A stretch of DNA of 64,000 bases from positions 11,542,193 through 11,606,192 of the forward strand of contig SCHM01000001.1 in NCBI GenBank assembly GCA_004123355.1, read 5' to 3'. The notes below the pieces were generated by a model. The model made no database searches and was not told the origin of the DNA. It was given only the letters and a program-made list of their open reading frames with translations. Positions within the stretch are counted from its first letter, which is position 1. Every line of letters begins with the position of its first letter. The DNA comes from Amphirosellinia nigrospora. Taxonomy: Eukaryota > Ascomycota > Sordariomycetes > Xylariales > Xylariaceae. The position numbers and the translations under genes were made by a program. Shown here one piece after another: positions 4,671-63,552 of this stretch.

Positions 4671-4677
4671 TATAAAT
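4671..4677 (+). promoter_or_regulatory. TATA-like box of the dioxygenase gene
   Basis: TATAAAT, 77 bp upstream of the ATG at 4748, followed by a pyrimidine-rich leader (CACCACCGTCCCATCC region) typical of fungal transcription start regions. Confidence 0.5.
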
Positions 4678-4747
4678 ACCATCCATCGTTCTCTCTTGGC
4701 TATCACACCATTGTAACACACCACCGTCCCATCCTACCCCTATCAAC

Positions 4748-6286: not shown

Positions 6287-7182
6287 CCGATCAAAGGTAG
6301 ATCGAATTGGTCAGTCTACATAGAACTCGTAGCACAATTACAGTTTGTTATGCTATTAAATGACACGTTGCTATTGCCCCTTGGTACACAGTTCTGAGAT
6401 ACCACAAGGACCGATTGACATCGCGAGAGTTGGGATGTCCTAGACCCATTCGGAAGGACGTTTGACCTCCACATGTTTCCCCAGTCCCGTCAACCCCCAC
6501 CATCTCCACTCGATCTTTTCATGATGCGGCAGTCATCTGCCTTCTGTCTAGTGTGAGAACGAAAGAGGAGTCGTGGAATGTGACCGGGAGGCCCCATAAA
6601 ACCACTATAATGGCCCGATGTCGGTTGTATCGACCCTTTGAAGTGCTCAACTGGTAGGGCGTCGGGCAAGTGTGGATATGCAATAGGTAGTATAATAATA
6701 TTGTAAGACGCCCAGCCCATGCTCCTCCTCACTTGGTAACCAAGCACGAGGTAACCTACGATATACTACTTGACCCCCACTAGAACGATGAAGGTCTCCC
6801 TGGCCCGAGGGGGTTCGAGTGGATCGACGTCCCATCACGACAAAGGGGAGTCGGGAAGTCGTGGTTGGTTGATTCATGGGCCATCCGTGTCCCTCTGGGC
6901 AGATGTTGGGTAGGACATTGACTGGTGGTGCCTTTGATCGCGACAAGGTGCACGAATATGAAACTGCAGCTAACCGACTCCTGCTCCCGTACTACTCCCG
7001 CTCCCCGCGAATACCGTCTTCATAATTATATATAGGTAGTTTGCCGGAAAGCATGTTAAGATGAAACTGCCTCGACTTAAAATCTCCACTCTTACCCAGC
7101 CGTGGTACGCTTTGTATCATTCTGACGACATCGAATAAGCTGACTAGAACCCACCTTCAACCTCCTCAAAGTCCTAGGCACC
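6287..7182. other. Intergenic, no gene seen
   Basis: About 0.9 kb between the dioxygenase and esterase genes. A TATATA-rich stretch at 7025-7035 is a plausible TATA region for the downstream gene. No supported coding sequence. Confidence 0.5.
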
Positions 7183-8319
7183 ATGGGTTCTCATGATACT
7201 TCTGGCCTCGTGAATGCTCTCCGGCCATCAATAGCCGAGAGACTAGACCCAGTGTACCGAGATATCTATAACACCCATCAAGGTAAGCAATCTGGGGAGA
7301 TGGCAGCCGAAGTTGCGAGTGGAGGCTCACGCGATCTTAGCCGCACATCTCCGCTGCGACCAAGTGCCCTATGAAACATACAAAACAGACAAGGAAAAAT
7401 ACAGCTTCCCAACACATAAAGTCACCGGTCCCCGGCCCGAGGTAGCAAGCGATGCCATCCATCGCGTGCCCGTCACAAGCCCGGCCGGGGAGGTCGAAGT
7501 ACAAGTCTACGTCCCAACGCCCGAGGCGATAAGCAGCGGCGGGCTCGCGAACGCCGAGGGCCGCCTGCGGCCCTCGTCAACTTCCACGGCGGCGGCTTCG
7601 TGATCGGCGACCTGAAGTCGGACGAGCCGCTCGTGCGCCAGCTCTGCCAGCGGGTCGGGTGCGTCGTCGTCAACGCCGACTACCGGACCGCGCCCGAGTT
7701 CCCGCACCCGACGCCCGTCCTCGACAGCTGGGACGCGCTGAGGTGGGTGTTCGCGCACGCCGAGGAGCTCGGCGTCGACCCCGCGCGGATCGCCGTCAGC
7801 GGCCTCTCGGCCGGCGGGTGCATCGCGACCGTGCTGTCGATCCTGGCGAGGGACGAGCCCGCCCTGCCGCCCCTGAAGCTGCAGATCCTCATCGTGCCGC
7901 TGTTCGACGTGCGCTACGTGCCGGAGGAGGGATCGTGCAAGGGCGGGCCGTACGAGAGCTACGTGACCAATGAGTTCGCGCCCATGCTGCCCCTTGCGCG
8001 GCTCGTGTGGTTTTACAATTACTGGCTGGGGACGGGGCCTGATAGGGAGGAAAAGGCCAAGGATTTCCGGGCGTCTCCCCTCCTCGCCGAGTCCCACGCA
8101 AACCTAGCGCCTGCCTCTATCCGCTCTGCCGAGGTCGATCCTCTCGTTTCTGAGGCGAAGGTGTATCATGAGAAATTGTTGGCAGCGGGGACCCAAAGTA
8201 AGATGAAGATTTATAAGGGGCAGGGGCACACGTTCCCACAATGGGACGGCTTGAATCCGGGTTCAAAGGAGTTTGTCAATGATTGCATTAGTGACCTGAA
8301 GGAAGCTTTCAAGTTGTAA
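7183..8319 (+). pseudogene. Alpha/beta hydrolase, GDXG (hormone-sensitive lipase-like) esterase, frame disrupted
   Basis: Serine hydrolase of the GDXG esterase/lipase family acting on short-chain carboxylic esters. The pieces are collinear: an N-terminal segment from ATG 7183, a middle segment from about 7313 (VEAHAIL to EVQVYVPTPEA), and a catalytic segment to the stop at 8317-8319. The oxyanion motif HGGGF, nucleophile elbow GLSAGG, AEVDPL (acid) and GQGHTF (His) are all present, so the triad is complete. The middle and catalytic segments lie in different frames. The switch is between about 7530 and 7575 in very GC-rich sequence, with no plausible intron; one missing base would restore the frame. 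The first junction would need a 37-bp intron (7283-7319, GTAAGC donor), which is unusually short. Either a decayed gene or an assembly indel. Family certain, functionality doubtful. Confidence 0.75.
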
Positions 8320-22095: not shown

Positions 22096-25000
22096 CGAGT
22101 TCTGCCACTACGTGAAAAGCGCTCGGCACTTGTATGCTGTCGTGGCGACAGAAGAGGTGGGACTAGAACGTATTCAACACAACCAGGGACGAGGAATTAG
22201 GGCGAGTTCCTGGTTAGCTCTGACTATTTAAGTGGTTAGCAAGAACGCGAACATCTACTGTGTAGAATCCTAGGTTGACACTTTAAAAGGGCTGACATGC
22301 TTACGGCCCGTTAGGATGTCGGGTAAGTTTTATCAAAGACGGACGATAGAGGGAACTGTAACTGAAGAAGAGTGTGTGAGTTGCATAGAATAATAGGGGA
22401 TCCTGAAAACCACGAGTGTTTTAGCCAGATCGACGCAAGGTAGCCGGTTGATGCATTGTACCGACGATGGTTTGGGGTTTAGGTTTCTTGGGATGAGATC
22501 AAGCCCAGTGATAGATCAAGATCGACTAGGTTAGCTGATAGGGTGCGGCCACAGACGAAAGCGTAGCACCGCTCCCAGCAAAAAGTAGGCACAATACTCT
22601 ATAACATCGCACGACAGCCACGACAGGCGGCTAATCCAAGAAGGTCTATCGCGTGAATGTGTTCGGTAGCGTGAAGCTCGCATGGTGGGCCTCCTAATGC
22701 AAGGCGTGGTTTGTAGCATGGCAGCCATGATAGAAGACATGGCTATGGCTACCTTATCCTTCACTTTGGGGATTGACCGACAGCCAGAGTATAGCATACC
22801 TAAACCCAGGGGAGGCGCGGTGCGATGTACGATATGTGTAGCTGGCGATCGCCAAAGAAAGGGATGGCCGAAGGCGAGTGCTGACAAGGTCACCTCTACA
22901 TGTGTACTATGTAACGCTGCGAGAGAAGTAGTCTAAATCCCTGACGTTAGCAACACCAGGCCAATGCCAAGACCCAGACCACACCACCCCCGGCTCCGAT
23001 GCGATCTTCCCGCACTACGGGGGGTCTTGCCCGGGGGGGGAGGCCTGATGCGGGGCCATGTTCATGTTCATCATGTTCATGTGCTATTCTGTTTTGTTCG
23101 TTCCTCTCCACATCAAGTGCGGTTTGTGTAGGCATTCTCGGTGCGGCACAACGGATGCGCTATATCTGGCCCGTACGCTTCAAACTGTTGCTCGGCGATC
23201 TTCTCTAGGTGTGTTCCACGGGCCAAGTTGACTGGCCTACAGTAGTGTGGAAGATCGAAACTCCAGGATAGCCTTCTAGGGGAAAGGACACCTTGAACTC
23301 CAGACACGTTGTTTCGTCAGAGTACCTACATGTTACGTACGCCGTCCTTCAAGCCTAGCGAGTCGTGCCCTGGTAGTCAGAACAGTTGAAAAAACAAACA
23401 AACATAATACTCGATAACTCACAACACTAACCCATGTTCACTCTGCCTTCAAGGTACTGCTATAATTTTCTAGAGGGGACGACGTAAGAACATGAAGTAG
23501 CATACAGGAGCTATGTAGCCTCCCACGTCTGTCTATGAGCGGTGAAAGCCTTCGGCAGGGTGCAGTGCCAAGAATATGGTGGCTGTGTGTTGAACTGGCG
23601 GCCGTATAATAAACAAGCAAGAAGAGGCTAGACTGATTCAAACGGGTATACTATGCGGCAGTTTGGCTGGAGGCTACATTAAGACTAGCTGTCTTAGGTA
23701 TGTAGGTGCTGTGTCTGATCTGCAGCGAGGAGAGAAACCGCAGGGTGGTTGATCTGCAGGCTGAGACCCGGCGAGTGGCTTGCTTGAAACTCACGAGGCA
23801 TAGCCCCCCCGTTTGATGCCGAACCCTAGGCCTGCCCTAGGTAGGTACACTAATGTATGTATGTATGTCAAGCATGCGGGCAGGCAGTGGCCCGGGAGGT
23901 ACCGAGCTTGATGACAGAAGTCCAGTAAAAAATAAGAGTATCACTTGTATCTCCACACTGCTCTGCCGATATTTTAGTAGCGTGCCTGGATAGGGCGACA
24001 ACAACAGGGGTTAGGGGAGCTGCAGCTGCGGGAGAAACGGGGCGGGTCAAGGTTTCGTGGGATAGGACAGCCAACGTACAGGGGCCTGTAAAAGTCCCGA
24101 CCAATCCTATCCCTACCTATATCGGTACTTGTCTGGTAGGTAGAATATAGTGTGACCTATATAGTACTGTCTCCAGGAAACAGATATTATGAGTTATAAT
24201 ATAATAGTTCAATCGTCTTTCTTAAGTGATGTATTTTTGGGAGTTTTCTATTCTAAGATTAGTTCGTATTGTATATTCTGGTTTCTATGATCTTTAGTGT
24301 AGGTAGTGTATCAAGCCAAGACGAAACCCGTCGGAACTTGTGTGTCGGGATTACTTAAGTACCGAGGCCCGACCTCATCGACACAAATTAAGTGCTTATC
24401 AACATCGTACACAATAACTGCTCACGATGCCATCATTTCTGGCCGGAGAAACGTCGCTGATTTTGAGAGGGAACACACGGTTAGAAAAATGTCCAAGGGG
24501 GACGAGAACGAGTTGAATGTTGAATGTTGCGCCCAACTTGGGACGACGGCCAAACCAGAACCCAGCCCCCCTTCAGTCTAGGGTTGTTGGTTTGGTTTCA
24601 CCACAACCGCGCCACAGCATGGACAGGTGCCCCCATGACCAATGTGACAGGGGTGTGGAAACGTACTATTCTGCGGCACCATGTATCCCAACGCTCGCAA
24701 TTAGATAATTTAGGTTAGATACTTGACTAGAGCGCTGCTGCGTCGGGGATACCGGGCTTTCGGACCTAGGCATTCAATCCTGCTTACGATACCTAATATG
24801 ACGGTATCTATGCAAATTGCCTACTACCTAGAGTTTTCCATCACTACATACCACCGACGCGGCCATGGACTTGCCAACAACTCCGTGCATCACAAGTAGG
24901 GATGGAGGTGAATAGGGGAGCCCAGTTGAGTATTAGGTAAAGAGGTTTGTTTGCAGTGGTGTCAAGTCGTGATCCGTGTTTCACTGCGTATCGGGACTGT

Positions 25001-28000
25001 CGCAGAAGGGCCCAAAGTCCTGAACTTGTTCCAAAAGCACGTGTTATGGCGATCCGTACGGATCATACCCATATCTACACTACAGCACGAGTCTTGTCTC
25101 ATGCCCAAGAACCAATCTACTATGGTGGCTCTCTTCCCGGGGTGTACTATTACCGGGTCGGCGTGTGCAGCTACTGTAGTTGGCCCCATTTTGAAACATG
25201 CGCTTCGAGGCGGATGGATCTGGGCAGCCAAGTGTTCCCAGGTTCGTGGGTCCGACAAGTTTAACTTAGTTCATCACAATAGGAGGGGTGAGGTGGTGTA
25301 GCTTTTGAGATTTTACTCGGACCGGGTGGGTGTATTCGATTGGCCCGACTCGTTATGCGTCACCCACTTTACACCATAGGTAGTTGATAGTTACATGAGG
25401 GTAAGTTTCCGTAACGCTGTCCCCTGTGACAATCCCTCTGGGTGTCCTTGTGCTACACCCGTGGAACAAACAAGACAAACTGTGTATGAACAAAACCCAC
25501 CGACGAGAGTGTTTTAGACCCCTTCGCGCACCAATAACCCGAAGCTGATCGGGGGCATGAGGACCACACGTTGAGTTCTAGCCTAGTGTCGGTTGCGGTA
25601 TTCCCGCTTCATTCTAGGCTTCTCTGGAGCTGTATATCCGGGGTGTAAAAACCGCCGCAAGGCACATTCGAAAGGCACTCACCAGAAGGCTGGGTCCCGG
25701 TATCCAGAATATCGCACGAGAGCCTAGTTCGTTTAGTACTGTTGAGGCTACAAGAAAGCTAAGAGTGGCGATAGAACCTATCTTGGCTCCACCAATCTGT
25801 GTAGCGTTTAGACCAGCAGGAATAGTTTACTGATGGTTCACTCGGATAAGGGGCCGATCTAGTATCGGCTGCAGGCTTATAGATGCGATTCAAATTAGAC
25901 CAAGTCACTCCAAGGTAGCGGTCATCACCATCGGATGTAGGGCCTACGGGCAACTGAGTTGCACCAGTAAATACCCTAGTAAGGTAGCGTTGTATGATCA
26001 TTTCTCGACCAAACGCCTCTCAATGGATTAGGTAAGTTTGAATTCACAAACTACGCTCAGAATAAGATAGGAGAAGATTCAACTCTGCATTCGTCTGCCT
26101 AGGCGCAGTGCATATCATGTCGAGCTTATGTTTTGAACCCGGGACGGGAAGATGTTGTCTATGCCATGCCAGGAGCATACAAGAATGTTCCTTGTTCCTT
26201 GTCCTTTTCGGCCGAGATGCCGCTTACCCGGATGGCATTGTTTTTGGATGAAGCGATGGGACGATCTCGTCAGCAGGGGACTTTACTAGAGGCTCGGATC
26301 AATGTCAAGGACATATCAAGATTAAGCCCTATATATGTGATTTCTTAACGAGGAAAGTCTCTGGCCTAGGTATTGACATGGAAAAGCTTCCATGACTCAC
26401 CCCCGGATCACTTTTGATAACCAGCAATTTCACGAGCATATAAAGTGCTTAACAAGTAACGATTCGTAAACACAATAGTTTTCAATTCATCCTAGGCGAA
26501 CTTCCCATAAATAATCTGCTCCTAAGCCCGAACGTGTCAAGCTTAGTCATTTCCCGACGCGCGGAACACATATAGCATTGACAGAAGCCGGACTCAAACT
26601 TATTTGTTCCAAAGATTTGAAATAATAATTAAATAGTAGTAAATATGCTTAAGAAGGTATGTAGACAATAGTCACACGAAGATATTATTTTCGGTATTTG
26701 TTTCCCCGTAATCAGTCTCTTCGGCCCATAAGGAATGCAGCAAGCCGCCATATACCCAGCCACATCATAGCAAGTTCAAAGTACGAAGGAAATTCTGAAC
26801 CATTATCACATGCTCGTTTGAGAGCCGCAAACAAGGGAGTCATCGTGAACCACAACTGCGGTTTGCCACCCCCAGCCATTAATATGTGACCTACATCTAA
26901 CGATGTCTATAATGTTTTTTTTTCTGACGTCATACCGTTCCACGCAATTAATAGGCGTGGCAATTAACTGGCAAGATATCTGACATGTAATCCAATTCTA
27001 AACAATCTAATTATCGAGGCGACTAGCTTTTCCAGCTCAAGTTACACTCTCTCTTAATTGTAGATATCAGTTGTATACTGAAGTAGCTCCGGTGACTTCT
27101 GCTGATAGTACAGCTAATCACAGAGTGTCTGTACACAAAGGCAAGGGAGTCCCCAAGGTTAGGGATAAATGAGAAGCCCCTTCCGTAGCCCAACCAACTA
27201 TACTCCTATTTCGATGAACTCAGTTGCGTTGTCTTTTGCTAAGCAGCCTGTCATTCATTTAGGTGATGATATCTTATTCTATATGCGCCAGGGCTTACTT
27301 ACCTCTCTAAGCAAGCAAGGGATGCCCCTATTAGGGCACTCTTCCATTTTGATATTCTCACACCCTCGTCGCCCACCTTAGGCGTACAGAGAGAGTAGCA
27401 CTGCTTACGTCTGTACGCTAGTAGGCAATCCATCCCTCGTAATTGGATGCACCATCTAAGGCGGACAAGTCTCCAACGGCTGTTGTAACCCTGGTAGGAA
27501 TTCTAGCTTCAGCCACGTCATCCCATCTCCAAGCCTATGAGTTAGAACAGCCTCGTGGCCGCAAACTGCTCGGGCAAACAAAGTGAGATGTTGTCCAAAG
27601 AACATGCTGGGTATCATTGACCATTGTTCTTCTGTTTGAACATTGGGTTGTTTTAATTATTGTACGGCAATCCATAAGGGGCCCTGAGCTGATTTCGATG
27701 AAGCAATATTATGATACCGAAGTAGCGGGAGGTTGCGATTCCGCATTAGTATGCGTTATTCTCAGTATATTGCTGCCCAATGATAAGTGGAAAATGTTCA
27801 CCCCAGGTGGGCGTCAAATGCCTTGTTTCCCAAGTTCCTTTAGTTCCTCGTTCCCAGTGCTTATTCTAGAGTATGAAGTACTCATTGGACGGTGAGCGAC
27901 TGGGGGCTGACCGGTAAGTCGATGACTTATGCATGCAGCCTGTTCGGAGATTTGGTGGAACCTGCCGGGCCATAGCATGTTGCTGCATGCTGCCAATGAA

Positions 28001-29209
28001 TGTCAGACCCTTGGGCTTGAGGCCAGGATGGCATATCCATCTTGCTGATTGGGCACTTGTGCATCAGGGTGAGTTCCTAAGTATGGCATGTAGATGCTGA
28101 TACGGCCGCTGAAGCGATACGAAAGGCCACAGCATACCTAGAATGGTCACTCTACAGGAAATTTCCTCAGCGGACATTAACTGATTCTATCACGAGGTAT
28201 GGCCAGCTCACTGGAACACTCTGTGTCCATAGAGAAGGGATGGCACTTTAAGGACCGCGCACGTGTATAGGCAACGTTGGCAACGTCGGCCTCGCGTTCA
28301 GATCACCCAGCGCTCATACCGAAGCCGATGGCAGTACAATCCACCGGTTCTCAAGCCAGTGGATCCCCTACGAAGCTGAGGCGGTAGCGTTTGAGAGATG
28401 ATATGGGCGAGGAATTGTGTAAATATGATTTTCAAGCTGTGCCACACGTTGGCTTGAAGCGGACACGTGCATCGTGGGTGAGGCGGGCAGTGCTATGCAC
28501 ACGCGCTTAGCATGCTATTCACGCCGCAGTAGGACCGTTATTTTGATAGGCCGGTAGCGGATAGTTGTTAGATTTTGAATGAGCATCATGTACTGTACAC
28601 TAAGTCGGCTAGCCAGACGGCTTAGATGAGTATCTTAAGCCCACCTGCTCTTCGATGTGGTTGGAGGGAGCCCTTTTGTTTGACTAACCGTTGGGACTAA
28701 ATTCTAGAGCCCAACCCTTAGAGACGGCTGGGTTCTCTGTACGATAGTTAGACTACATATACCTAAATGTATTGCTTTTGCCATGGCTGTAAATTTGAAT
28801 AGTCACATAATCTGTAGCAACTAGAAATTATCCATTTATAGATTTGTTCGGAAAGTTAGAGTAATGAGTACCTGTTTATGCTGATGGGTCCTAGATTTCA
28901 GCCGGGATTTCGGATATTGCAACGCCAAGTTGTTAGTGCTGACAAATTTCGTCCGCGCTCGGCCGAATACCTTGGCATCATCTTTAGGGGATTGGCTATC
29001 CTTAACTAACGCCAATATGTATTTTCGCTTCAATTGTCTGACTGACTTTGTCCTACTGCCTTACGGATGATTTTATACGAGCTATCGTTGATTGTGCTTT
29101 ACTACTTGGTACAGGCAATTTAGTTGTGGCTTTGATATAGAGCCAATACGTTTGTTGCACGTAGTGGAACTGCTATTGGATACACAACTAGACAGACAGT
29201 TCTGCCTCA
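22096..29209. other. 7.1-kb region with no recognisable gene
   Basis: Only short overlapping frames in all phases. None has motifs, intron-linked continuation or a clear start context. An ATGT tetranucleotide run lies near 23853-23868 and several TAGGTA-type motifs occur. Upstream of the regulator gene it may hold promoter sequence. A gene with many introns or heavy decay could be missed by eye. Confidence 0.5.
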
Positions 29210-31812
29210 ATGTCATCAGCACGGCGTCTCCCTGTCCGCGGTGCGGATGGAGTTACCCCTGAACCGAAGCGAAGGAAAGTCCGCAAAGGAACACGCAGTT
29301 GCTGGGAATGTGAGTGTGAACCCCTTGTGGAATTTTGGAGAGGGCGGTTTTGATGTGAACCCGAATAAATAGGCAGAAGGCGGAAGATCCGATGCTTGTA
29401 TCCTTCAGAAGACGCTGCAATTTGTGCCAATTGCGAATCTCGTGGCTCGACTTGCGTAAGCCAAGAGTTCACAGACGAACAAGCTTCAACGCCTGATCGA
29501 CGGGTAACGCAACGTCTTGGACGTGTTGAAGAAATGCTTGAGAAGTTGGTCGAAAAGATAATGCCGGACTCTTATAATGCCAGCCGAGCGCGCCCCACGA
29601 GCACTTCGCCCGCTTCGGCCGACGCTGTTGAACCGGAGTCCGACGACGGCGGTGCGTGCTCATTCTCCGTTGGCAAACCTCCCATGTTTGATGTCCTTGT
29701 ACCTCTACAAAACTGTAACGAGGCATCTGGTACCATTTGTCCCTCATTGGATGACCTCCCAACGCCAGCACCCAGCCAAGCCGAGATACCTGCGCTAGGC
29801 GCCAAGTACGGGCGTGTGTCGAAAACGTTGTACGATTTATTACCTTGCCAGCAGGATGTCGACACCATCATTGCAGCGAGCTCAGGAGCCAGCTTTGTCA
29901 TTAGTTTCTTCTCGCGATACAAGGATGTAGCTGCCGGACGAACCGTTAAGCCGTCCTCTCTGTGTGTTCCTCCGGAGCCGTCTTCACACCCAGCTGTGAT
30001 TGCGAGGCGATTGCTGCAGCTCACAAACTGTCTCCAACAAATTCAGCCTTCAACACCGCTTAAGCTCGTTACAAAAGAGTCTACTCGTTGCCTAATGGTT
30101 AAATATGTCTCAATAGTCTCAGACTTAGTGGCTTACAACGACGACCTTGTGGTTATGCGGAAGGGTTAGAGACTCTGGCTCTGATCTCGCTATATCATGC
30201 CAACGCCGGCAACCTACGGAAATCATGGCTCATGCTCCGCCGCGCAATATCTGTGGCACAGCTTATGGGCGTTGATCGATCAGGTGATAAACCGATAAAG
30301 TCTGCTGATCCAACGTCCAACCTCTCAATTCAGCTCAGTGGAAAGGCACTTTGGTTCCGTCTCAACTTCACAGACCGGTATTTGTCTCTTCTTTTGGGAC
30401 TTCCAGCTGGCACGGACGACAACTCTTTCTTGGGCAACGACCCTGACGACGAGCCGATGGATAAGCTAGAGAAACAGCACACGGTTGTCATGGGTGCTAT
30501 AATTAAGCGCAACTCTAGTAAAGGTGATGCGTCGTTTGGTATGACACAAGCCATTGATTGCGACCTCGAAACAGCAGCACGAAGTGTTGCGTCCGACTTC
30601 TGGCAGCTCCCACCAGCCAATACCTTGGCGGATATAGGGCCCGTAGAACGCATGCACACTAGTAAGTAGTTCTTGTTATTTGTTTTTCTTCGTCTTGCTC
30701 GAGCCGTTTCAAGCGCATTTTCAAGCGCATAAAGGGGCATTTCCAGAGCTGAATCATGCCTTGCAAGTGTTCTGAGCTTTTGAAGCCTACGCATGCCGCC
30801 CTTAGGATCCCAATCGCTAACTAGAAGTGTTGTAGTATCGCAACTGATGTTACAGATGAATCATCATAACCTTCTCATTCTGCTCCATCTCCCTTATATG
30901 CTTCGTGACCCAAAAGAACGGCGCTGGGACTATAGCAAGGCGACCTGCATAAGTTCATCACGACAACTCCTACGCGCGTTCATAATTTTTCGCAAGGTAA
31001 ACAATGCGTCTAATACATGCCGGCACACGGATTATGGCGCACTCACAGCGTCTATGACTTTGCTCCTCGGATACCTGGATCCGAAGCTACAGGCGCGCGA
31101 CCAGGCCACGACCGCGAAGAGAGATGCAGACCGCACGTTAATTCAAGATGCGCGTGCCCAACTCCAGCAGATGGCTGATTTGAATGGCGATAAACTTGCA
31201 CGCGAAGCCGCCTCCATCATTAGTCGTCTTCTGCCTTTATTAAGCCCGGAACTGATAACCAATTGCGGCGGTGGCAGCGAAGGGCGGGCAAACGAAGGTA
31301 GTGGCGAAGGGTCAGCGATTCACCTCGAAATCCCGTACTTGGGGACGATTAATATCAATCCATCTGCCAATACCCAGAATCCTCAGCATGACGTACAACC
31401 GCATGCCCACTCGATACCAGCCTCGCCACCCGTCATTGATGCCAATACTAATCCCGACGCCAACATGAACCAACACGACTATGTTGATTATCCGAGTACT
31501 CACACACTCTCCCACAGTACCGCACCAGTCACGACAAACTGGGACACACCATCAACTCAACAACACGCTGCCCCTGCTGAAGGAGTTCAGGCCGAGGGAT
31601 CTCACTTATTGTCAATCCCTATGGAATATAGTCAAGATTCAAACTCATACGATGACTTTAACGGACTTCCGCCCATGATGCAATTTGAGTGGTCGCAAGC
31701 ACATCTCGCCCACCCAGAGCTAGCAGCCGAAGCCGACGAGTGGACATTCCAGGGATTTGACACAACGTACTTTGAAAGCCTATTTTCATCTGGTGCACAA
31801 GGCCTTGGATGA
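29210..31812 (+). CDS. Zn2Cys6 fungal transcription factor, one frame break
   Basis: DNA-binding regulator of transcription, nuclear. Exons 29210-29309, 29373-30661 and 30806-31812. The first intron (GTGAGT donor, AATAG acceptor) splits the first zinc-binding motif; after splicing CWECRRRKIRC and CANCESRGSTC complete the six-cysteine cluster, preceded by a basic KRRKVRKGTR region. Downstream lies a fungal-specific regulatory domain (EGLETLALISLYHANAG; RWDYSKATCISSSR; CRHTDYGALTAS), then an acidic/Gln-Asn-rich tail suited to activation. One base is missing at about 30155 (GTGGTT-ATGCGG). Adding it gives exactly 798 codons with all splice phases consistent, so this is a single isolated lesion or sequencing error. 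It is the gene next to the cellulose-degradation enzymes and convergent with the dehydrogenase gene (196 bp apart). A role in controlling them is inference. Confidence 0.8.
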
Positions 31813-32008
31813 GAATGAAGTGGAAAATAGCCAGGTATTAACGGTTATGACGTGGTGGAATAGGCACGGGAATGAAGAAACGGCCACTCCGTTTTTTCTA
31901 GAGCAAATAATAATTTATGCTGTCTCTCGATAACGCGACACTTTGTACAATAACTGACTGTACCCTTTTCGCAACATAAGCATAATAGGATCATTCCTTC
32001 GTCATATC

Positions 32009-34929
32009 TCATGTATAGGGAATCAGACTTGGCTGATGATAAGCCACTATCGGGTGATGATGACGGCACCCTTCCTTCGAGACACGGCCTTGGCTTTGGG
32101 TCCGTTCTCCAGTGAATATTCTCGTAGCGGCGTTCTCCGCTGCTGTGACGATCATCGCGGAGGGGTTCGCTGTGACCATGCCCGGGAATATGGATCCATC
32201 GACCAAAAAAGATTATCCGTGCCGATACCTTGGTATCAAGATCCACCACAGCTGTGCCATTTGCGTTTCGGCCATCGTCCAATCCCATTTTGTTTGTACC
32301 TGCGAGAGTCAAGCATTAGCTGCATCTGGAGCTTTATCGCCTGATTGGTAGAGCCGAGGGCAGACTTACCCAGCCAGTGGTTCGCACGACGCTTAGCAGC
32401 GCTTACTACGATACCATCTACGTAGTCTTTGGTTGTCTGGTTCGCTGGTGGGAAAGAGAATTTGAGGTTTGGGTATCCTGAGAGAGCCTTGCGGATACCA
32501 TCAATACTGGCGATGACGGCGAGCTTGTCGTTTTCGTCCTTAAGGTACGGAGCGTCCGATACAAAGGTGTCTAATCCCTGTCGGATGGTCATGCGACCAC
32601 GAGAGGTAGAACCACGGCCGAGGTACTGACTCATGATCATTGTGCCTGACATTGATAAGCTTTTGCCTTAACAATTATCACACGGTTGCACTCACTGTTG
32701 CTGCCGGTCTGGTCGGCTCCTTCGATACGTGCCGTCCATTGGAATTGACGTATTTTACCGTCGGCCCCGAGACTTCCTCCAGAACTACATGGTATGTTAA
32801 TCTAATGTGCTGAAGATAAGGAGAGGCGAGATCACATACTACGGGTCGATATTGGGAGCAGACTGCGCGAGAATGCCGCTGCGATTTGCTAAACCTAGGT
32901 TAGAAACTCTTATCAATCAAAGCTTTTATCGCTACTTACAGAGATAGGCCGATCGGTCCGAAGGAATAGGCTTGGTCCAAGCCTCGTAGAAGTCGTAGAA
33001 GATGACATCTGGGTGGGTGATAAAAGTATCGGTCTGCGGCGGAACTATTAATAACCGGCTCACAGAGTTTCCCAGCTATACTCACGTTGACATGATCAAC
33101 AAGTTGTAACCGACAGGTAGATTGATCCACGCGTCGTCACTGACCATGGACGGGCCATCCGTTGACGACTTAACCACTTCTAACTGGTCCTTGGGCCAAT
33201 CCCACCTGAGAATCATCAGTCACCTATTGCAGGGAGGAAAAGACAGAGGTCTTACTTCGCATCAAGAACTTGGCCGAGCCAAAAGTTCCAGCAGATACAA
33301 TTACGCGCCCAGTGTTAGGCGTGACAGAGACTGTGCCATATTTATCTTGCCCGACCGTGCAGTCCAGCTCGACACCGGTTATTTGTCCACCAGTTCGAAG
33401 TGCTCGACGAGCTGGAGTGTTCATCCAAAGCTGGAAATTGTCCCTCTCAGCTGCCGTCTTCAGGTACGTGGCCATTGGTCCCGTCCGCTCGCCTCCGGAG
33501 AACATGTACGTTGTGGGACCGTAGGTACGGTTCTTTGCGCCAGGGAGTTGTTTGGGACGTCAACTGCTGTCCAACCACCCTTCTTCAACGCCGAGCTCAG
33601 AAGGTTAACCCCTTGCGACAAGTACACTTTTCCGTCGACAGATGGTTTAGTGGTTCCAGGAATGCGCTGGAATACCTTCTGGGTGGCAGCCTTCAAATCG
33701 GCGTCGTGCCATCCGGCGGGGAGTTTTCGTCCCAGTCCTTGGGGTTGGCCTACTCCTCATTAACACATAATCTAACCCGATGATCAGAGTTGGGAATTAC
33801 CTTCCACCAAAGCCCGGCATTCACGGCAGTGCCACCGCCAAGAACACAGCCGGCCATCTGATCTGTGTCCTTGCAAGCGACGCCAGCGGAGTCGACCCAG
33901 ATCTGGTTGCAAAGGCCAGGCACATCGAAACGAGTGAGGTCAGTCTTCTCAAGCCAAAGCGGTTTCATGTTTCCACCCCACATGCCCAAGGACGGAGGGC
34001 CTTTCTCGAGGAGAAGGACACTATGTCCCTTTTCACTGAGGCGATCTGCCATGGGAATACCACCAGCACCGCCACCAATGATGATGTAGTCGAATGTTTG
34101 GTTGGCCATTTCTGGATGGCAGCTACCAATTGGGTCAGGAGTCGGGTCCCCATCACCGGGGTCGGAGTGCCACAGTCCCCAGGTACCACTCTCGTTGCCT
34201 TCTCAGCCCAAGTATCATACGAGTCCTTCACAACGGTGTCCAGAGGCGCACCAAACTGGCCAAAAGCATCGTGTTGCTTGACAGTAATCTGCGAAGGACA
34301 ACTGGGGTTAGTGGGCGCGGTTTTTGAAGAAGCACGTCCGAGAACGAAAAAGCCCGAAGTGTTTGAACGCTTCCTGTTGCGCCGTTGTGGTCCCAGGAGA
34401 AACAGCCCTGACACCGGTATATAAGCTCGAAACCGGTATCGGTTACCGTGGACGATATTTGCGTCAATTGGCTTGTCCCTTATACTCTTCGGAAGGCTAT
34501 ATCCAGTCGCGTATCGGAATGATGTCAAGACCTCGTCTCCGTTGGCCCAGGCAACTAATAACAGGGCTTGTGTCATTTGTCCGGACTCGCCCAGAGACAA
34601 ACCGCACCAGCCCGTCGAACATTTCTATAATACGTTCAGCCCATGGCCATTTGAATCGTTCCCAGGGCCCAATAACGTACCAGATTCCGACGAACTCTGT
34701 GGCGTCGGTAGTTAGGGCATCGCCAGGTAGTGTCAAACCGATGGTCATATCACCCTGTACCATGTTCCGAATTCTATCCCGTGGCGGGGTCGGTATACGG
34801 GACCGGCTCCTGGGCGAGGCATGTTCGAAATGCTGGTGACAGTTAGGATTGCTCGAGCTTAGCTATATCGCGTCACTTACAAGCAGCGACGGCTAGAACC
34901 GCAGTCGCGATGCGTGAAACGCTCGGCAT
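32009..34929 (-). pseudogene. cdh: Cellobiose dehydrogenase (haem domain plus GMC flavin domain), multiple frame breaks
   Basis: Secreted flavocytochrome that oxidises cellobiose and passes electrons through its haem domain to LPMOs. ATG 34929 opens a signal peptide (MPSVSRIATAVLAVAA), then a GTAAGT intron. Haem domain: TLPGDALTTDATEFVG, GQMTQALLLVAW (Met ligand), YRCQGCFSW (disulfide Cys) and QHDAFGQFG (likely His ligand). Flavin domain: IIIGGGAGGIPMADRLSEKG (dinucleotide fold), GCVLGGGTAVNAGLWW, FSGGERTGP, NHWLG (catalytic His) and FPGMVTANPSA. All parts are in family order with several short introns, but at least six frame changes are needed, for example near 34780, 34465, 34350, 34140, 33540 and twice within about 32180-32200. 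No CBM1 at the C-terminus. It is divergent from the AA9 gene. Identity is firm; as written no functional enzyme can be made. Confidence 0.82.
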
Positions 34930-37536
34930 CTTGAGGCCAATCAGAAAGCGTCCAGTACCATAAGAAAGACGAGTCAGTTACCCTCTCAAAAGCCTGAGCG
35001 GTTCGTCACCTATTTAATATCATTGCGACGGCTTACCAAGAGAGCTAGGCTCGCTCCGCAGTTCCGGTAGGGCCACAAGGTCAGCCACATCCTGAGGAAC
35101 CCTGTTGGTGAATCCGAGGGCCACAGACATGGGCTCGATTCGGGAGCCCGAGCCGGCCCTTTGAATGGCTCATTTTGTGGCCCGCATGAGATATAGCGTA
35201 TCGGAACTATCCGGAAAGAAGAAGACAGATAAAGTTGCCCAGGTCGTTTTTGCGGAGGAAGCTGACAAGACATCCGACTGGCCAGGATAGGCGATAGCCG
35301 CTTGAGGCTGTCAGCCGGGAAGCTATAGATTCGGGGGCAATAGAACAAGTCAAATGAAACGCGGAAGTATAGTCCTGATGAGCCTGGAAGCTAAGCGGCT
35401 CAAGTCCATTGTCTTGTTCTAACTAGATTGCCTGTGCCGATAGGCACCCGGTAGCTTGGGGCACATATGCTCCCCTGAACGAAGATCAATCGAATTCATT
35501 TTGTTCAATGCTTCGATTGTGCTTGTTGCCGTTCTTCAAGTGCAGCATTGCAAGTGTGCAATCGAGTAATACCACTCTTCTCATACGACACTGACAATCA
35601 GTACCGGGAAGAGGGATTGGGGAAGTTCCCAAAGCCTCAAACATTCGGGGAACCTACGCTACACAGCTAACTTCGGCTGAATAGTGCTACCGAGCGACGA
35701 CTCTGCATGCATCCAAAGGAACGGTTCTGCGGCGGGACCGCATACAATGTGCAATTCTCCGCTGCCCAGGGGTTCCCCGCAGACATTGAAAACAACTCAT
35801 CTAAGTAAACCGAGATCCTCCCCGCAACGTTACCGATATCGCCTTAGAGCCTAAGATCAAGCGGCCTGGCAAGAATGGCCTGTCTTGAATAACAGCAACC
35901 CCGGATTCCTGCTGACTTATGCAAGATATAGCGGTTTTCTCCGCGCGAATACTAACGAGTCTCCATCTTGGCAGGCCAAATCCGTAATTGATTAACGCGT
36001 GATCTGGATAAATGGGCGCCAAACGCTCCTCTGAGGCTCTTAATTAAACGTGTCAGCTACATGCCAATTAATGCTGCTCAGCCTATATTCGGAGAGCTCC
36101 CTCCTTGACTTCTCATTTGGCAAGCCCCGTAGTAGATCAGTAACCCATCGCATAGGAAACGCCTTCGCCTCAGCAACTTTACATGTCACCTTGAATCACT
36201 AAGCGCTCACATAATTATTTCGAATCATCTCATCGGCTTCTAGGGCCGAAATGATGTTCTGCTCGCCTGCGCCCATACTGTGGCGAGTAATTCACCACGA
36301 CGTACAGATCTTCCGTCATTTACGGAGCCGGCGATCATGCATAGCCCTGATTTGCAGTTTACGATGATGAGTTAGTTCATAACGCTGAATAATGGCACAC
36401 CCATAGCGCGCCATCGCGTTGGTTCTAGTAACAGTTACAGAACGACATTACTGTTGCCGTATATTCGCTCCCGGTTATGACCAAAGCTCAGTACGGGATA
36501 TTTACTCGCGGAATTATACATCATAATGGTGCCATGTTCTCAGTGACCATGCTGACATATGGCTACCGCCCGCCGCACTTTGGAGATTCGGAAAGCAAGT
36601 TTCCATCTTACATATCTCCTTGGCGAGGTATTTCGTTTCTATCCTAGACTATCGGGAGACGGACGACAAGGAGTAATATACTCGTATACAACTTACCGCC
36701 GGTTAAGCTTTGAGCATTTGGTATTTCCCGGTAAACCACAACATATATAGGTGCTTGAGAACAGCCACATTCGATTTCATGCCGTAAGTGAACCACAGAC
36801 GCACAGCCACACTAGGGTTTGACAGCATAAGTTCCTAGATATAGAAGTTAAATAATCTAACGCAAGACCAATACATGATTAGAACTATTAACTTGAGACA
36901 TAGATCCGGTGATCTTTATTTGTCCAAGGCTTACCTGTGAGCGAACTCATCTATAGGCACAGGTATGTCTGTCAATGAAGTATAGGAAGGCGATATATGG
37001 GTCGCAACATAGTAATGATTATCATGCTCTTATCACTCTTCCTACGTTTTCTTCTGAGCGTCATCAGCCGAGTTTACAGCTAGAAGTATTATGTATTTGT
37101 GTGCGTTAATTGGTTATGGAGAGCTAGGGTAATACATGAACCTCCAATCAATATCAAGCCGCCTCGCTGACGTACCATGGTTCCTCGAAGAACTATAAAG
37201 TTTAATTCAAAGGTTATTACTTTTATGTTAATGCCGATTGGGCTGTAGAGACTCAACCTAACCCAGGCTCTTGGCCCATTTACTCGCAGCCTTGGTGCCG
37301 ATGGGCCAGACCGTTTTCTATAGAATAAAGTCGAGAAGGGGTCACAATATCAGCAGTGGACTATCAACTGCCGAGGACCACGGAGGCTACCATCCCCGCA
37401 TGTGAAGTCAGATGGCATGACGTTGAAAGAAGGTTCGGCGACGAACGATATATACCATCAATGTCTGCATCGCCCAGTTCTCATTACGTTGTAGTTAGGA
37501 AAACACGTACTTGACATTTACACCACTCTGCACAAG
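34930..37536. other. 2.6-kb divergent promoter region between dehydrogenase and LPMO genes
   Basis: Shared upstream region of the divergent genes. Two CCCCGC hexamers (near 35775 and 35820) fit the CreA carbon-repressor consensus, which is short enough to occur by chance. No gene recognised inside. Confidence 0.45.
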
Positions 37537-38623
37537 ATGAAGGGCTTCATCAAGGCTACTGTTTCGGCGGTTCTGGCTGCACAGACCGTCTCGGGGCATT
37601 ATATTTTCCAAGCCCTAGGCAAAGGTGCCGCTAAAGGCACAGCCTATGAGTTTGTGCGCCACAATACGAACCAGAATTCTCCTGTAACTGGTGCGTTTAA
37701 ACACTCCCTTTTGATACTAGTGTGGCACTCTAATACAGACTATAGATCTCTCTTCGAATGATCTTCGATGCAATGTTGGCGGTGCCACTGGCGGAAGCAC
37801 GAGCACCCTGGCGATGAACGCTGGTGACCAGTTCACATTTAGTCTCGACCAGGCTGTGTATCACCAGGGGCCAGTCTCATTGTTGGTTAACCCCCTTTGA
37901 GGAGCAGTATGGAATATATAAACGGTCAACACTAATAAAATTCTAGGTACATGTCGAAGGCCCCTGGGACGGCGGCAGACTATGATGGTAGTGGAGATTG
38001 GTTTAAAATTTTCGATTGGGGTATGCTGTTACACATGAGATGAGTGTATGAGTCCATCCCTAACTCAAAGTGCAAACAGGCCCGAAGTTCGGAGGTGGTC
38101 AGGCACAATGGACCATGACAGGTACGAAAACTACCTAGAAAAATGATGTTTCTTGTGCAAGGTATTGACATAAATATCAGGCACCTACTCCGGAAACATC
38201 CCTAAGTGTATCCCAGATGGCGAGTATCTTTTGAGGATTCAGTCTCTTGCAATGTGAGTAATTCTTAGAACTAATTTCTTCTTTTTTGCCGACTTTTAGA
38301 GCATGATATTTCTCTTTTGGGACAAAGGAGTGTTCAGAAGCTTCTTTTGAAACTCAAATAACTGAGCTCCAAATGGCCGTAACTGACTTCGATTGTTGTT
38401 GAACAGCCACAACCCCGGCGCTACTCCACAATGGTATATCAGCTGCGGACAAGTCAAAGTCTCTGGAGGCGGAAGCACGACCCCTTCACCGACAGCCAAG
38501 ATTCCTGGTGCCTTCAAGGCGACCGATCCTGGTTACACCGCAAACATCTACAGCAACTTCAATAGCTATATAGTGCCCGGTCCCTCGGTTTTACCTGCTA
38601 AGGAGGCTCATGAGTTGGCTTAG
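37537..38623 (+). CDS. AA9 lytic polysaccharide monooxygenase
   Basis: Secreted copper enzyme that oxidatively cleaves cellulose, using electrons from cellobiose dehydrogenase or small reductants. Six exons: 37537-37690, 37746-37881, 37947-38020, 38080-38121, 38181-38253 and 38407-38623. They keep one frame for 231 residues. The 20-residue signal peptide ends at VSG so that His21 becomes the N-terminal copper-binding His. The second copper His is in [10 protein letters not shown], and the [13 protein letters not shown] motif supplies the second-sphere His/Gln and axial Tyr. The second intron has a rare GTTGGT donor. No CBM1 follows. The ATG fits a CACAAGATG context and the start of the signal peptide. 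It lies between the dehydrogenase and GH5 genes, both of which have broken frames, yet this gene is clean. Confidence 0.93.
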
Positions 38624-40083
38624 TCATGGGAATAGCGGATTCGGACGACGAGCCGGACGTGGGTTCAAGCGGAATGTATATAGGGACTTATAATCATTCT
38701 TTACCATTCCTAAGGCCGACACCTTCACATGCATTTTCACAGTCAGATCTCGAAGTGGCGATCATTGCACATGTACAAGTATGCATAGCGCACATCTGTT
38801 GGAAAACTTGTCCGATAAACCCCAGTATACCACCTCCACGGGTTTCCACGGCGCGATTTGGGAGTTTCACTACCTCCTTATTCGCCGAATGTAGCAGATG
38901 AACTTATCAAAACGAAACGATCTCCCCTCTCCACATAGATCTGCCAAGAAGGGACCATTAGTGGGTTTCATGGGTCACGTTCCTCCGAATAAATTCCCCT
39001 TTTCAGTAGTCCGCTCCTAATCAAGCTTTCTCCCCCTGTGAATCGTAACGACTTTTTGTAAGCACTAGCTGGGGGCGTAAGATTACTATACTAACCAAAA
39101 CTTGATATCATGGGAGATACGCCATTTCCTACCTAATTTTGCCTATGCCAGATGTTCCAACGAGATCTATTGTTATAAAGGGCTAACCTACTGTTAGTAG
39201 TGATTGACGTCTTCTTACTTACAGTAGATAGATATGTGCGCCACGATCGCCGTCTGTCCTGCCCAAAATAGTGTGTCTATAAGAATCAATTGCAAAACGT
39301 TTGTGAGCCTGACAGTCGCCTAGTTTACTTCGTGCAGCCAATTTATGCTAAGAAGGCCATCGTTTGAGTGCATTAACCGATGATGTCACTCGCGTTAGCT
39401 GAGGATATAGTGTGGGGGTCAGATAGGGGGTCAAGAGAGGCAGAGTCAGCATCGAAGGCGATAAAACAGCGATAAAACACATGACATGCTAATGGAAATA
39501 TCGGCATCATGGTGAAGCTTCTAGCCAACCGTTTGCAATTTACATCAGTACAACAGGAAGGACCCTAAACCTAAACCCCAGCTTTGGGAAATATGGCGTT
39601 GGCCCGCTCCGAGGTTTAGTGTTGAAGAGGTATCGATCGCCTCTTTAGCCTCAAGCTAACGGCTATGGCTACGACGCATCGCGTTTCTGTTTGATAATCA
39701 GCGGCTTGGACGAGAGAACACGCTTGTTCATGCGGCTTTCTATAGACTGTTAGTTGTTCGATCTTGGATTAATGAGGTAGGTGATTGGTGAGGCTGCATA
39801 CATTCCACCTCACCTTCCTTCGGCTTGCTATCACCGTCTCCAGATATAGATAGTTCTCTATTACCACCAAGATGTGACATCACAGAGAGACCCTTACTAT
39901 CAACACGTTTGACAGCGGCCGTTAGCTACTAGCTCGAAGGAAGGTAGATAGCTAGATAGAAAAGTATATAAACAACGCTTCATGAACACCACCCCAAAAC
40001 GAGACCTATTAAGCCCATCTTTGTAGCTCACCCATCAACATCCCCCGTGCCGCATATTCCGAACCCAGCGTCTCTTTATCATC
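38624..40083. other. Intergenic between AA9 and GH5 genes
   Basis: About 1.5 kb. Contains a short telomere-like stretch (39563-39579) judged to be chance. A frame at 38626-38901 directly after the LPMO stop has no CBM or other recognisable feature. Confidence 0.5.
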
Positions 40084-41553
40084 ATGAAGCTCACTACTGC
40101 TTCTGTTGCTACGCTAGCTGGGTGCATCTGCACTCCCACAAGCGACCTCTACCAAGCGAGCTACTGGCGTTCAATACTTCGGTGTCAACATCGCTGGATT
40201 CGACTTCGGCTGCGGAACAGATGCAAGCAGCACCCGAGACCATTCACCAAAGACAAAAAACTAATGTGACGTAGGGAACCTGCGATCCATCCAAGGCGTA
40301 TCCGCCGCTGTCGGCACTCGGTGGCCCTGATGGGTAAGTCGTGGCACACCTAGCTCAACTTCGGCGATGCGGCTTGTGTGCTAACGATTCTCAGAGCGGA
40401 CAGATGTCCCATTTCTCGAAAGATCTATCTATGAACATTTTCCGACTCCCAGTTGGATGGCAGTATGTATTTCTGAGTTGTGTGATTCTCCCACAGGCGC
40501 ATGTCTGGCCATAGCCAATAACCCCCCCAACCACAAATCCACAAGTCGAATATCAACAAAACTTGAGTGGTACAATCTAACTCTAAGTTTCTTACAGATA
40601 CCTCTTGAACAATCAATTAGGTGGTACACTAGATGCCAACAACACGGTAATTACGACCAGCTCGTTCAGGCGTGCTTGGCTACTGGTGCTTCTTGTATCA
40701 TTGATGTGAGTAACCAGCTCGAAGCTTGAATTAAGTCGATAGTTACTAACAGAGAATGACTTGCAGATTCATAACTACGCGCGTTGGGACGGACAGATCA
40801 TTGGCAAGGTGGCCCAAGCATGACCAATTCGCCAATGTTTGGAGCCAGCTCGCGACGAAATAGTAAGTAATCTCAGTATCATACATTGTTAAGGAATGTG
40901 AAGAGGCTTCAAAGGCCCTCCTTTCCCTACAAGCCAGCCCAAATAGCGATAGCTGACTCCGAATGTTGTAGCGCGACTCAAGGCAACGTCTTCGGGCTTA
41001 TGAATGAGCCTCACGACGTGCCCGACACAACGCATGGGCGCAAAGCGCACAAGCTGCCGTGAACGCAATCCGTCAAGCCGAGTCCGCAGCAGGCGGTTCT
41101 GCGCATATGATCCTGATCCCAGAACGACTATACATCAGCAGCCGCGTTCCCCACGAACAGCGGCCCTGCGCTCCTGGGCGTCAAGAACCCAGACGGCAGC
41201 ACAACGGGGCTTGTCTTCGACGTGCACAAGTACTCCGATAGCGATGGTTCCGGAACGCACACTGACTGCGTTACCGATAAATCTCGTCAGCCTTCGCGCC
41301 GCTCGCCGACTGGCTGCGCAACGGCCGACAGGCCTCAACACAGAGATGGGGCGGCAACACGACTTTGCCAGCAGTATGTCTGCGACAGATCGCGTACGTC
41401 AACGCGAACGCCGACGTCTACCTCGGTTACGTAGGCTGGGCGGCGGGATCATTCGATCCCGCGACCTACGAGCTTAGCGAGGTCCCAACGAATAATGGCG
41501 GTTCTTGGACCGATACTTCTCTTATCTCAACTTGTTTCAAGAAGGCTCAGTAA
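40084..41553 (+). pseudogene. GH5 endoglucanase (subfamily 5-like cellulase), heavily frame-disrupted
   Basis: Endo-1,4-beta-glucanase related to fungal EGII-type cellulases. The ATG at 40084 (MKLTTASVATLAGC) looks like a signal peptide. Family segments follow in order: VQYFGVNIAGFDFGC, CDPSKAYPPLSALGGPDG, FRLPVGWQ-YLLNNQLGG (intron with GTATGT donor between), YDQLVQACLATGASCIID, IHNYARWDG, FGLMNEPHDV (acid/base Glu), GLVFDVHKYSDSDGSGTH, a NTEMGG segment (nucleophile Glu) and DVYLGYVGWAAGSFDPATYELSEVP, ending in a natural C-terminus. At least seven frame changes are needed in about 1.1 kb of coding sequence, besides four or so introns, so no continuous protein is possible as written. Both catalytic glutamates are still present, suggesting that decay is recent or that the breaks are sequence errors. 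Identity firm. Confidence 0.82.
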
Positions 41554-42235: not shown

Positions 42236-42326
42236 GGCAACGTGGCTGAGTGGTTAAAGCGTATGACTAGAAATTTCTAGCGATCATATCCCTTCGGGGT
42301 CACAGGTTCGAGTCCTGTCGTTGTCG
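42236..42326 (+). tRNA. tRNA-Ser (anticodon AGA) with a 10-nt intron
   Basis: Class II tRNA. The acceptor stem GGCAACG pairs with CGTTGTC (one G-U). The A box is in TGGCTGAGTGG and the B box in GGTTCGAGTCC. The anticodon stem TATGA pairs with TCATA only after removing 10 nt (ATTTCTAGCG) located one base 3' of the anticodon, the standard intron position. Variable arm CCC-TTC-GGG; T stem ACAGG/CCTGT. A T-rich stretch (ATTTTCTTTT) follows as a Pol III terminator. Mature length is 81 nt before CCA addition. Confidence 0.93.
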
Positions 42327-58554: not shown

Positions 58555-58728
58555 TTAGCTGCAGCGGACTATGGGTCTAGCCAACTTAGGTAGGTAGGCC
58601 CACAGGGTATATAGGTATCTTGCCAGCTTCAGGGCGGTCCGAAAGTCTGCTTGCCGAGCCGTCACACCGTGCATAATTTATTTAACCTGCGCTATAAGCC
58701 AATGCCAAGGATAATGGTCAACTTTGGC
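58555..58728 (+). repeat. Direct repeat copy A, left flank of P450
   Basis: Shares four ordered blocks with copy B (62819-62923): TAGCTGCAGCGG; GCCCACAGGGxxTATAGGT; a 26-bp block ending TGCTTGCCGAGCCG; and a 37-bp block (58692-58728) identical except for one base. Copy A has extra sequence between blocks. The mismatches inside the last two blocks are transitions only. Confidence 0.85.
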
Positions 58729-62029: not shown

Positions 62030-63552
62030 ATATGGCCGGATTGGGGTCTTCAATCACCAAACTTGACCGATAATGATGGAACTGTCTAACATAGAATGGA
62101 AAATACTGTGGTTACTTTTAGTTAGACGAAGGAGAAGCACATATGTGGTTGTCTATTCCCACGACTGTCTTACTTAATTTCAACGCTTGTAGGCCGCTAT
62201 AGTTATTCTTAAGACATGTGCGCATTGGCCAAGGACTACCCAGACAGCTATCACACGGATAAGCCACATAGCCACTAGGCACAGGACCACGAGCCATACA
62301 GAGTCCTGACTGACTGATGACATCCGACCGCTCCTCGAGGAGCCTAGAACCAGAGGTCTGGGGCCCCTTGAATTCTGTCTGTAAATAAGACTATGAGTGA
62401 GGTTACATTCTAGTCAAAATTAGGAAACCGGAGATCCTACAGATCCCAAACAGATTTATTAGCTGAATAAAACTACATTCAAGCCCTTGTCATAATTCTT
62501 CTGTACAACGTCACTGTTACACGTATCTCGCCTACGGATTCAGCCCTCGGCAATTTGTGGCCGCACAGGCCAACGGAGATTTGTTGGGGTGGTCCGATAA
62601 ATATAGGCTAGCCAGGTCCCGCGTCCTCTGCTGGGGCATCTAGAGAGTAAGAGGTCTTTTGACGCCATAGCCAATTATTAGATTTGAAGGAAAGAAGCTA
62701 TTCCCAAGTCCTCGAATTGAAATCGCCTTCCTAAGAATTTAGGCCGTTAACGGTCTGTAAGATAGCATAGCACTAACTAACGCTATGTGTTTGGGTAGGT
62801 AGAGTACCTAAGTAGGTATAGCTGCAGCGGCCCACAGGGCGTATAGGTGGTTCGAAAATCTGCTTGCCGAGCCGATTCAGCCTGGACTATGAGCCAATGC
62901 CAAGGATAATGGTCAACTTTGGCTTTGTCGCGAAATTCAGGGGCAAGGGCTGAGTCACGTGGTACGGAGACGTGATGTTTATTTCAAGACAGAATCCAGG
63001 GTTAGGAATCGGTGAGCGTGCTAACTGTATGTGTATTCTGGCGCCAGGGGTAGAGGCCTCCCGCAAATAACCCTTGCTAATGAATACGGACGTCCAATTC
63101 AGCCTAACATTTGCGCCTCGGCCACCGCCACGTTAAAACGCAGGTAAAAACGGTCATTGCTAGCTATTACCTAGTCTCTGTTGCAATAGGAAACTGAGCG
63201 TATTGTCATCAATGAATGCTTAGCCATATGGGTCACCTTAGGTAGCTCATCGCGCATCGGGTAGCTCAATGTCCACTGTGGCTGAGTACACTAACATGAT
63301 AGGCATACTCATCGGCCAGCGAGACCCGCATGTAGGATCTTTGGACGATGGATATGCTCTGTCAGTAGAGGAAGCTGATCTATTTATTCATATAGATCTG
63401 TGCGAGGGCGCGTGCCTGGACGTTGCTCGAGCCGGTGAATGAGTCATAGGAGACATACTTGCCAGGATACTTAATTGTTTTAGTAGCTTCAAGCTATACG
63501 CTCAAGTCTCATAGCCAATATTTAATAATCATACATCGCGTGAAGAGCTTCA
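62030..63552. other. Intergenic region containing repeat copy B
   Basis: About 1.5 kb between the P450 and the gene at the right edge. Apart from the direct repeat no feature is recognised. Confidence 0.5.
62819..62923 (+). repeat. Direct repeat copy B, right flank of P450
   Basis: Same orientation as copy A and more compact: the four shared blocks are nearly contiguous. Block 4 (CTATGAGCCAATGCC onward, 62887-62923) differs from copy A by a single G/A change. The P450 gene lies between the two copies. Confidence 0.85.

Follow-up and report, generated by a model that had tools for sequence, protein, structure and literature searches.

A cellobiose dehydrogenase (CDH), an AA9 LPMO and a GH5 endoglucanase are encoded side by side, next to a Zn2Cys6 transcription factor gene, in the 64,000-nucleotide stretch of DNA analysed here (the window; C1:11542193-11606192 in a genome of 48.1 Mb and 11 contigs; its genes contain short introns and encode fungal domains). 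The types of enzyme suggest a filamentous, cellulolytic member of the Pezizomycotina. The four genes probably form an ordinary CAZyme neighbourhood, in which the enzyme genes are served by genome-wide cellulase regulators, the Zn2Cys6 gene is present by chance, and the breaks in the CDH and GH5 reading frames are mainly indels of the assembly. The neighbourhood itself is real, and is an uncommon but already-known kind of arrangement. Its enzymes plausibly cooperate, by analogy with such enzymes in cellulolytic fungi generally. The features are as follows.

29210-31812, + strand: Zn2Cys6 transcription factor gene (the regulator), with a C-x2-C-x6-C-x9-C-x2-C-x6-C zinc cluster, a weak Fungal_trans match and a first intron at 29310-29372
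32009-34929, - strand: CDH gene, with an AA8 cytochrome domain and an AA3_1 flavin domain; ends set by eye, ATG and TGA checked
34930-37536, no strand: 2607-base upstream region common to CDH and AA9, which are transcribed divergently
37537-38623, + strand: AA9 LPMO gene, intact, six exons, 231 amino acids
40084-41553, + strand: GH5 endoglucanase gene of the Trichoderma Cel5A/EG-II type, from Pfam and PDB sequence matches

Position 29210 is the A of the regulator's ATG, and 41553 is the final base of the GH5 stop codon. Pfam and PDB sequence searches bear out the earlier note, which had placed these four loci next to each other on these strands, with no unrelated recognisable gene between them: six-frame scans of the gaps at 34.9-37.6 kb and 38.6-40.1 kb yielded no Pfam family. 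The divergence of the CDH and AA9 genes over a 2.6-kb upstream region, also claimed there, is equally clear, as the two start at 34929 and 37537, respectively. The enzyme identities that had been read from conserved motifs hold as well, on domains, motifs and PDB chain matches together.

The CDH gene carries a CDH-cyt domain (E 3.5e-26) and a GMC N domain (E 2.8e-5), both on the - strand, and the cytochrome domain precedes the flavin domain within a single gene, which is the expected order. Its pieces, lying in three frames, tile PDB entries 4qi6 and 4qi7 from about residue 25 to residue 766, with 57% identity to a composite of the 4qi6/4qi7 chains. The FAD-binding GxGxxG block (GGGAGG), the NHW block and the NPSA block all align with these chains, and we take the His and Asn of the latter two blocks to be the catalytic residues. 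The window CDH thus shares the AA8 cytochrome and AA3_1 flavin domains of the ascomycete class II CDHs represented by 4qi6 and 4qi7. CBM1 has no match anywhere in the window, so that both CDH and GH5 appear without this module; for CDH, this fits the CBM1-less subclass, IIB. In the genome's CDH on contig C5, a CBM1 match lies about 1.8 kb from the flavin-domain match. The closest AA3_1 relative of the window CDH, at C4:9280904-9281170 (C4:9.28 Mb), is 73% identical over 89 residues.

The AA9 domain is matched on the + strand with E 8.5e-22, and the gene consists of exons 37537-37690, 37746-37881, 37947-38020, 38080-38121, 38181-38253 and 38407-38623. A signal peptide, recognised by eye, is followed by His1, and the second His and the tyrosine of the ISCGQ block are present; we take His1, the second His and this axial Tyr to be the copper ligands. 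The spliced mature protein matches PDB 8b7p, the closest solved chain, over residues 1-201 of 211 (E 1.5e-45) with all three ligands aligned, and differs from it by a ten-residue tail past the match.

The GH5 domain is matched on the + strand with E 9.3e-10. Pieces of the gene tile PDB entries 3qr3 and 5d8w, with 60% identity to the 3qr3 pieces, and the homology extends across the catalytic domain, including the NEPHD motif with the acid residue of NEP; the second catalytic Glu falls in a block with an uncertain frame. The window GH5 is therefore like EG-II/Cel5A (3qr3, 5d8w) in sequence and in NEPHD, and differs in the frame broken in this assembly and in having no CBM1 match.

What would these enzymes do together? 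Judging from family membership, the CDH flavin domain would oxidise cellobiose, and the haem domain would pass electrons to LPMOs, possibly to the neighbouring AA9, which would in turn cleave cellulose oxidatively; the GH5 endoglucanase would cut the opened chains. The enzyme genes would most likely be induced through genome-wide cellulase regulators, not the adjacent Zn2Cys6 protein, whose presence may best be explained by chance. CDH transfers electrons to AA9. The earlier note had read the genes as one functional chain; the identities of its members stand, while the electron transfer that links CDH to AA9 is general background and not a result obtained here. According to PMC6540522, joint action of CDH and LPMOs is a possibility.

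Is the neighbourhood a selected unit? The genome contains at least 28 AA9, at least 16 GH5, at least 9 CDH-cyt and at least 4 close AA3_1 loci (matches grouped within 3 kb), and among the loci listed, the window is the only site where members of different families among AA9, CDH and GH5 come within 15 kb of one another. For any CDH-like locus to have an AA9 no more than 6 kb away and a GH5 no more than 10 kb away, the probability is 0.9-1.8e-4, a post hoc figure that assumes 2-4 CDH-like loci and uniform placement. The proximity of the three enzymes is thus unlikely by chance, so that selection for clustering is conceivable. At C5:173984-182537, a span of 8.6 kb contains an AA9 together with three CBM1 matches, of which one is probably part of that AA9; this is another possible cellulase gene group.

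These figures, together with the uninterrupted 2.6-kb gap between the divergent CDH and AA9 genes and a GGCTAAA site in the AA9-GH5 gap (one against 0.11 expected), are what a selected, co-regulated cluster for oxidative cellulose degradation would offer, with a divergent CDH/AA9 promoter and the adjacent Zn2Cys6 protein driving all three enzymes. We nevertheless consider such a cluster unlikely. A distance of 2.6 kb is long for a promoter shared by two genes, and both the regulator and the upstream regions, described below, speak against it. Moreover, no CDH-AA9-GH5 cluster surfaced in the literature searched. Fungal CAZyme clusters, as in Phlebia radiata and Trichoderma reesei, likewise bring lignocellulose-active genes together, some of them co-expressed, and the single CDH gene of P. 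radiata adjoins a putative catalase gene, both being upregulated on spruce (PMC6540522). Among the clusters met in this literature, none combined CDH, AA9 and GH5.

The Pfam matches of the regulator are weak: Zn_clus reaches E 0.0096 and 16.5 bits against a cut-off of 21 (exon 2 alone), and Fungal_trans reaches E 1.9e-4 and 21 bits against a cut-off of 23. When exon 1, with the ATG at 29210, is spliced over the first intron, which is GT-AG, all six cysteines come together as CWEC-RRRKIRC-LYPSEDAAI-CANC-ESRGST-C. The CWEC and the nine-residue loop contrast with the ACAEC, ACEVC and ACDQC and the five- or six-residue loops of CLR-1, CLR-2 and XlnR (N. crassa/C. thermophilum). Judged from these residues, the zinc cluster is not of the CLR-1, CLR-2 or XlnR type, which places the regulator outside the three cellulase-regulator types compared. 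Its two overlapping frames could be joined by any of 17 GT-AG stretches; a frame break is not established because introns could join the frames, and we do not claim that the regulator is broken. In about 6 kb 5′ of it (23001-29002), six-frame scans gave no Pfam family.

For binding sites, we scanned the upstream regions 28211-29210, 34928-37536 and 38624-40084, in this order below. The XlnR, XLR-1 and CreA motifs used are general knowledge. The CLR-1 and CLR-2 motifs were taken from PMC12911045; having been defined in other genera, they may not apply to this fungus. CLR-1 sites are absent from all three regions, as are CLR-2 sites, for which 0.25, 0.65 and 0.37 were expected, too few for the absence to mean much. 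GGCWWW occurs 6, 9 and 7 times (4.1, 10.6 and 5.9 expected), GGNTAAA 0, 1 and 1 times (0.4, 0.9 and 0.5 expected), and CreA-like sites 0, 8 and 7 times (3.1, 8.1 and 4.5 expected); the GGCWWW and CreA-like counts are about the window mean. The AA9-GH5 gap contains six TATAWA matches against 1.9 expected, with palindromic matches scored twice. None of the GGCWWW, GGNTAAA, CreA-like and TATAWA counts is claimed as a signal. CLR-2-type sites occur 16 times in the window as a whole, compared with 12.2 in shuffled sequence; one lies just within regulator exon 1 (29222-29238) and another in CDH coding DNA (33699-33715).

Zn2Cys6 genes are also common, with at least 131 matches in the genome, a list from which the window's regulator is itself absent, and one is expected by chance within 6 kb at a rate of 3% (131 genes) to 7% (300 genes, an assumed number). 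Co-regulation by the adjacent Zn2Cys6 protein, which the earlier note had offered as an inference, is therefore unsupported: the zinc cluster is unlike those of CLR-1, CLR-2 and XlnR, sites for CLR-1 and CLR-2 are missing from the three upstream regions, and such genes are frequent. A tie of the regulator to cellulose, or its control of the three enzymes, would be a supposition without support.

How should the broken frames be read? According to our frame aligner—self-built and unvalidated, with introns restricted to GT/GC-AG and counts that shift with the penalty—the CDH model has eight introns, about nine frame changes (8-14 by penalty) and no in-frame stop, and CDH thus has no uninterrupted reading frame in this assembly. 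The GH5 model has five introns, of which the first (40223-40274) is GC-AG, and four frame changes (4-8 by penalty), again without an in-frame stop; one further change, found by eye, lies in the signal peptide. The AA9 frame, between the broken CDH and GH5, is open without a single change.

The same kind of break occurs throughout the assembly. The unlinked C5 CDH has ten frame changes in 2.2 kb (6-12 by penalty). After removal of three loci below the score cut, four duplicates and the window gene from the 30 AA9 loci given, 12 of the remaining 22 have at least one frame change, with 18 changes in 11.7 kb (1.5 per kb) and two in-frame stops, and four distinct GH5 paralogues have five changes in 3.2 kb (1.6 per kb). 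By a different, more conservative count from match tables, which accepts only junctions with fewer than 30 nt between pieces and hence no room for an intron, frame-changing junctions occur in 6 of 10 chaperonin loci (0.71 per kb), 5 of 10 HSP70 loci (0.67 per kb) and two of nine CDH-cyt loci, the window's included. In the window's ribosomal L18 gene, the gaps between Pfam pieces are all compatible with introns. A living fungus is hardly likely to have lost the function of half its chaperonin and HSP70 loci, which points to indel errors in the assembly as the main cause. In addition, 16 genes, all chosen for having frame changes, contain 45 of them against two in-frame stops, and the sites favour homopolymers, with a run of at least three at 71% of them versus 52% of random coding sites (P 0.003). 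We therefore read the breaks mainly as indel errors: they are assembly-wide, reach essential genes, lie preferentially at homopolymers and are accompanied by few in-frame stops. Programmed frameshifting was rejected, as only one of the nine window CDH sites falls within three residues of a C5 CDH site.

The frame shifts inside conserved CDH and GH5 blocks had first led us to entertain a pseudogene reading, which was mostly dropped after the chaperonin and HSP70 genes showed the same. In this reading, which we regard as quite unlikely, CDH and GH5 decay next to an intact AA9 in a fungus that is losing its attack on cellulose. Their densities of 4.2 and 4.3 frame changes per kb do exceed those of the other AA9 loci, the GH5 paralogues and the essential genes, and the unbroken AA9 between them fits decay. 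Against it, neither gene has an in-frame stop, introns can be placed throughout (within the GT/GC-AG limit of the aligner), the FAD-binding and catalytic blocks are retained, and the second CDH, on another contig, is broken at equal density and at mostly different sites. The window GH5 and the two CDHs exceed the background to an extent not fully accounted for; closer homologues reveal breaks more readily, which may be part of the reason. Indels disrupt many genes in this assembly, so accurate reads are needed before any gene is taken as lost.

A dedicated oxidative-cellulose module—CDH with its own AA9 partner, a divergent promoter, an adjacent endoglucanase and, in the same cluster, a Zn2Cys6 regulator of cellulose genes not known before—is improbable. 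Because the genome has at least 28 AA9 loci, the window AA9 need not be the particular partner of the window CDH, and that the one serves the other is a conjecture without support, on which sequence alone gives no answer. If the adjacency were conserved, it would indicate which of the roughly 28 AA9s the window CDH serves, and perhaps a new regulator. An origin of the region by segmental or tandem duplication is extremely unlikely: several paralogues do occur elsewhere in the genome, but the region contains no ungapped repeat of at least 40 bases in either direct or inverted orientation (seed 14), and no match to CDH-cyt, AA9 or GH5 lies within 15 kb of the nearest AA3_1 relative, at C4:9.28 Mb.

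Elsewhere in the window, indoleamine dioxygenase-like and alpha/beta hydrolase matches lie on the + strand at 4676-8319, and a tRNA, the single Rfam match, lies at 42236-42326. A 49-base direct repeat (58680-58728 and 62875-62923, 90% identical) flanks a P450 match.
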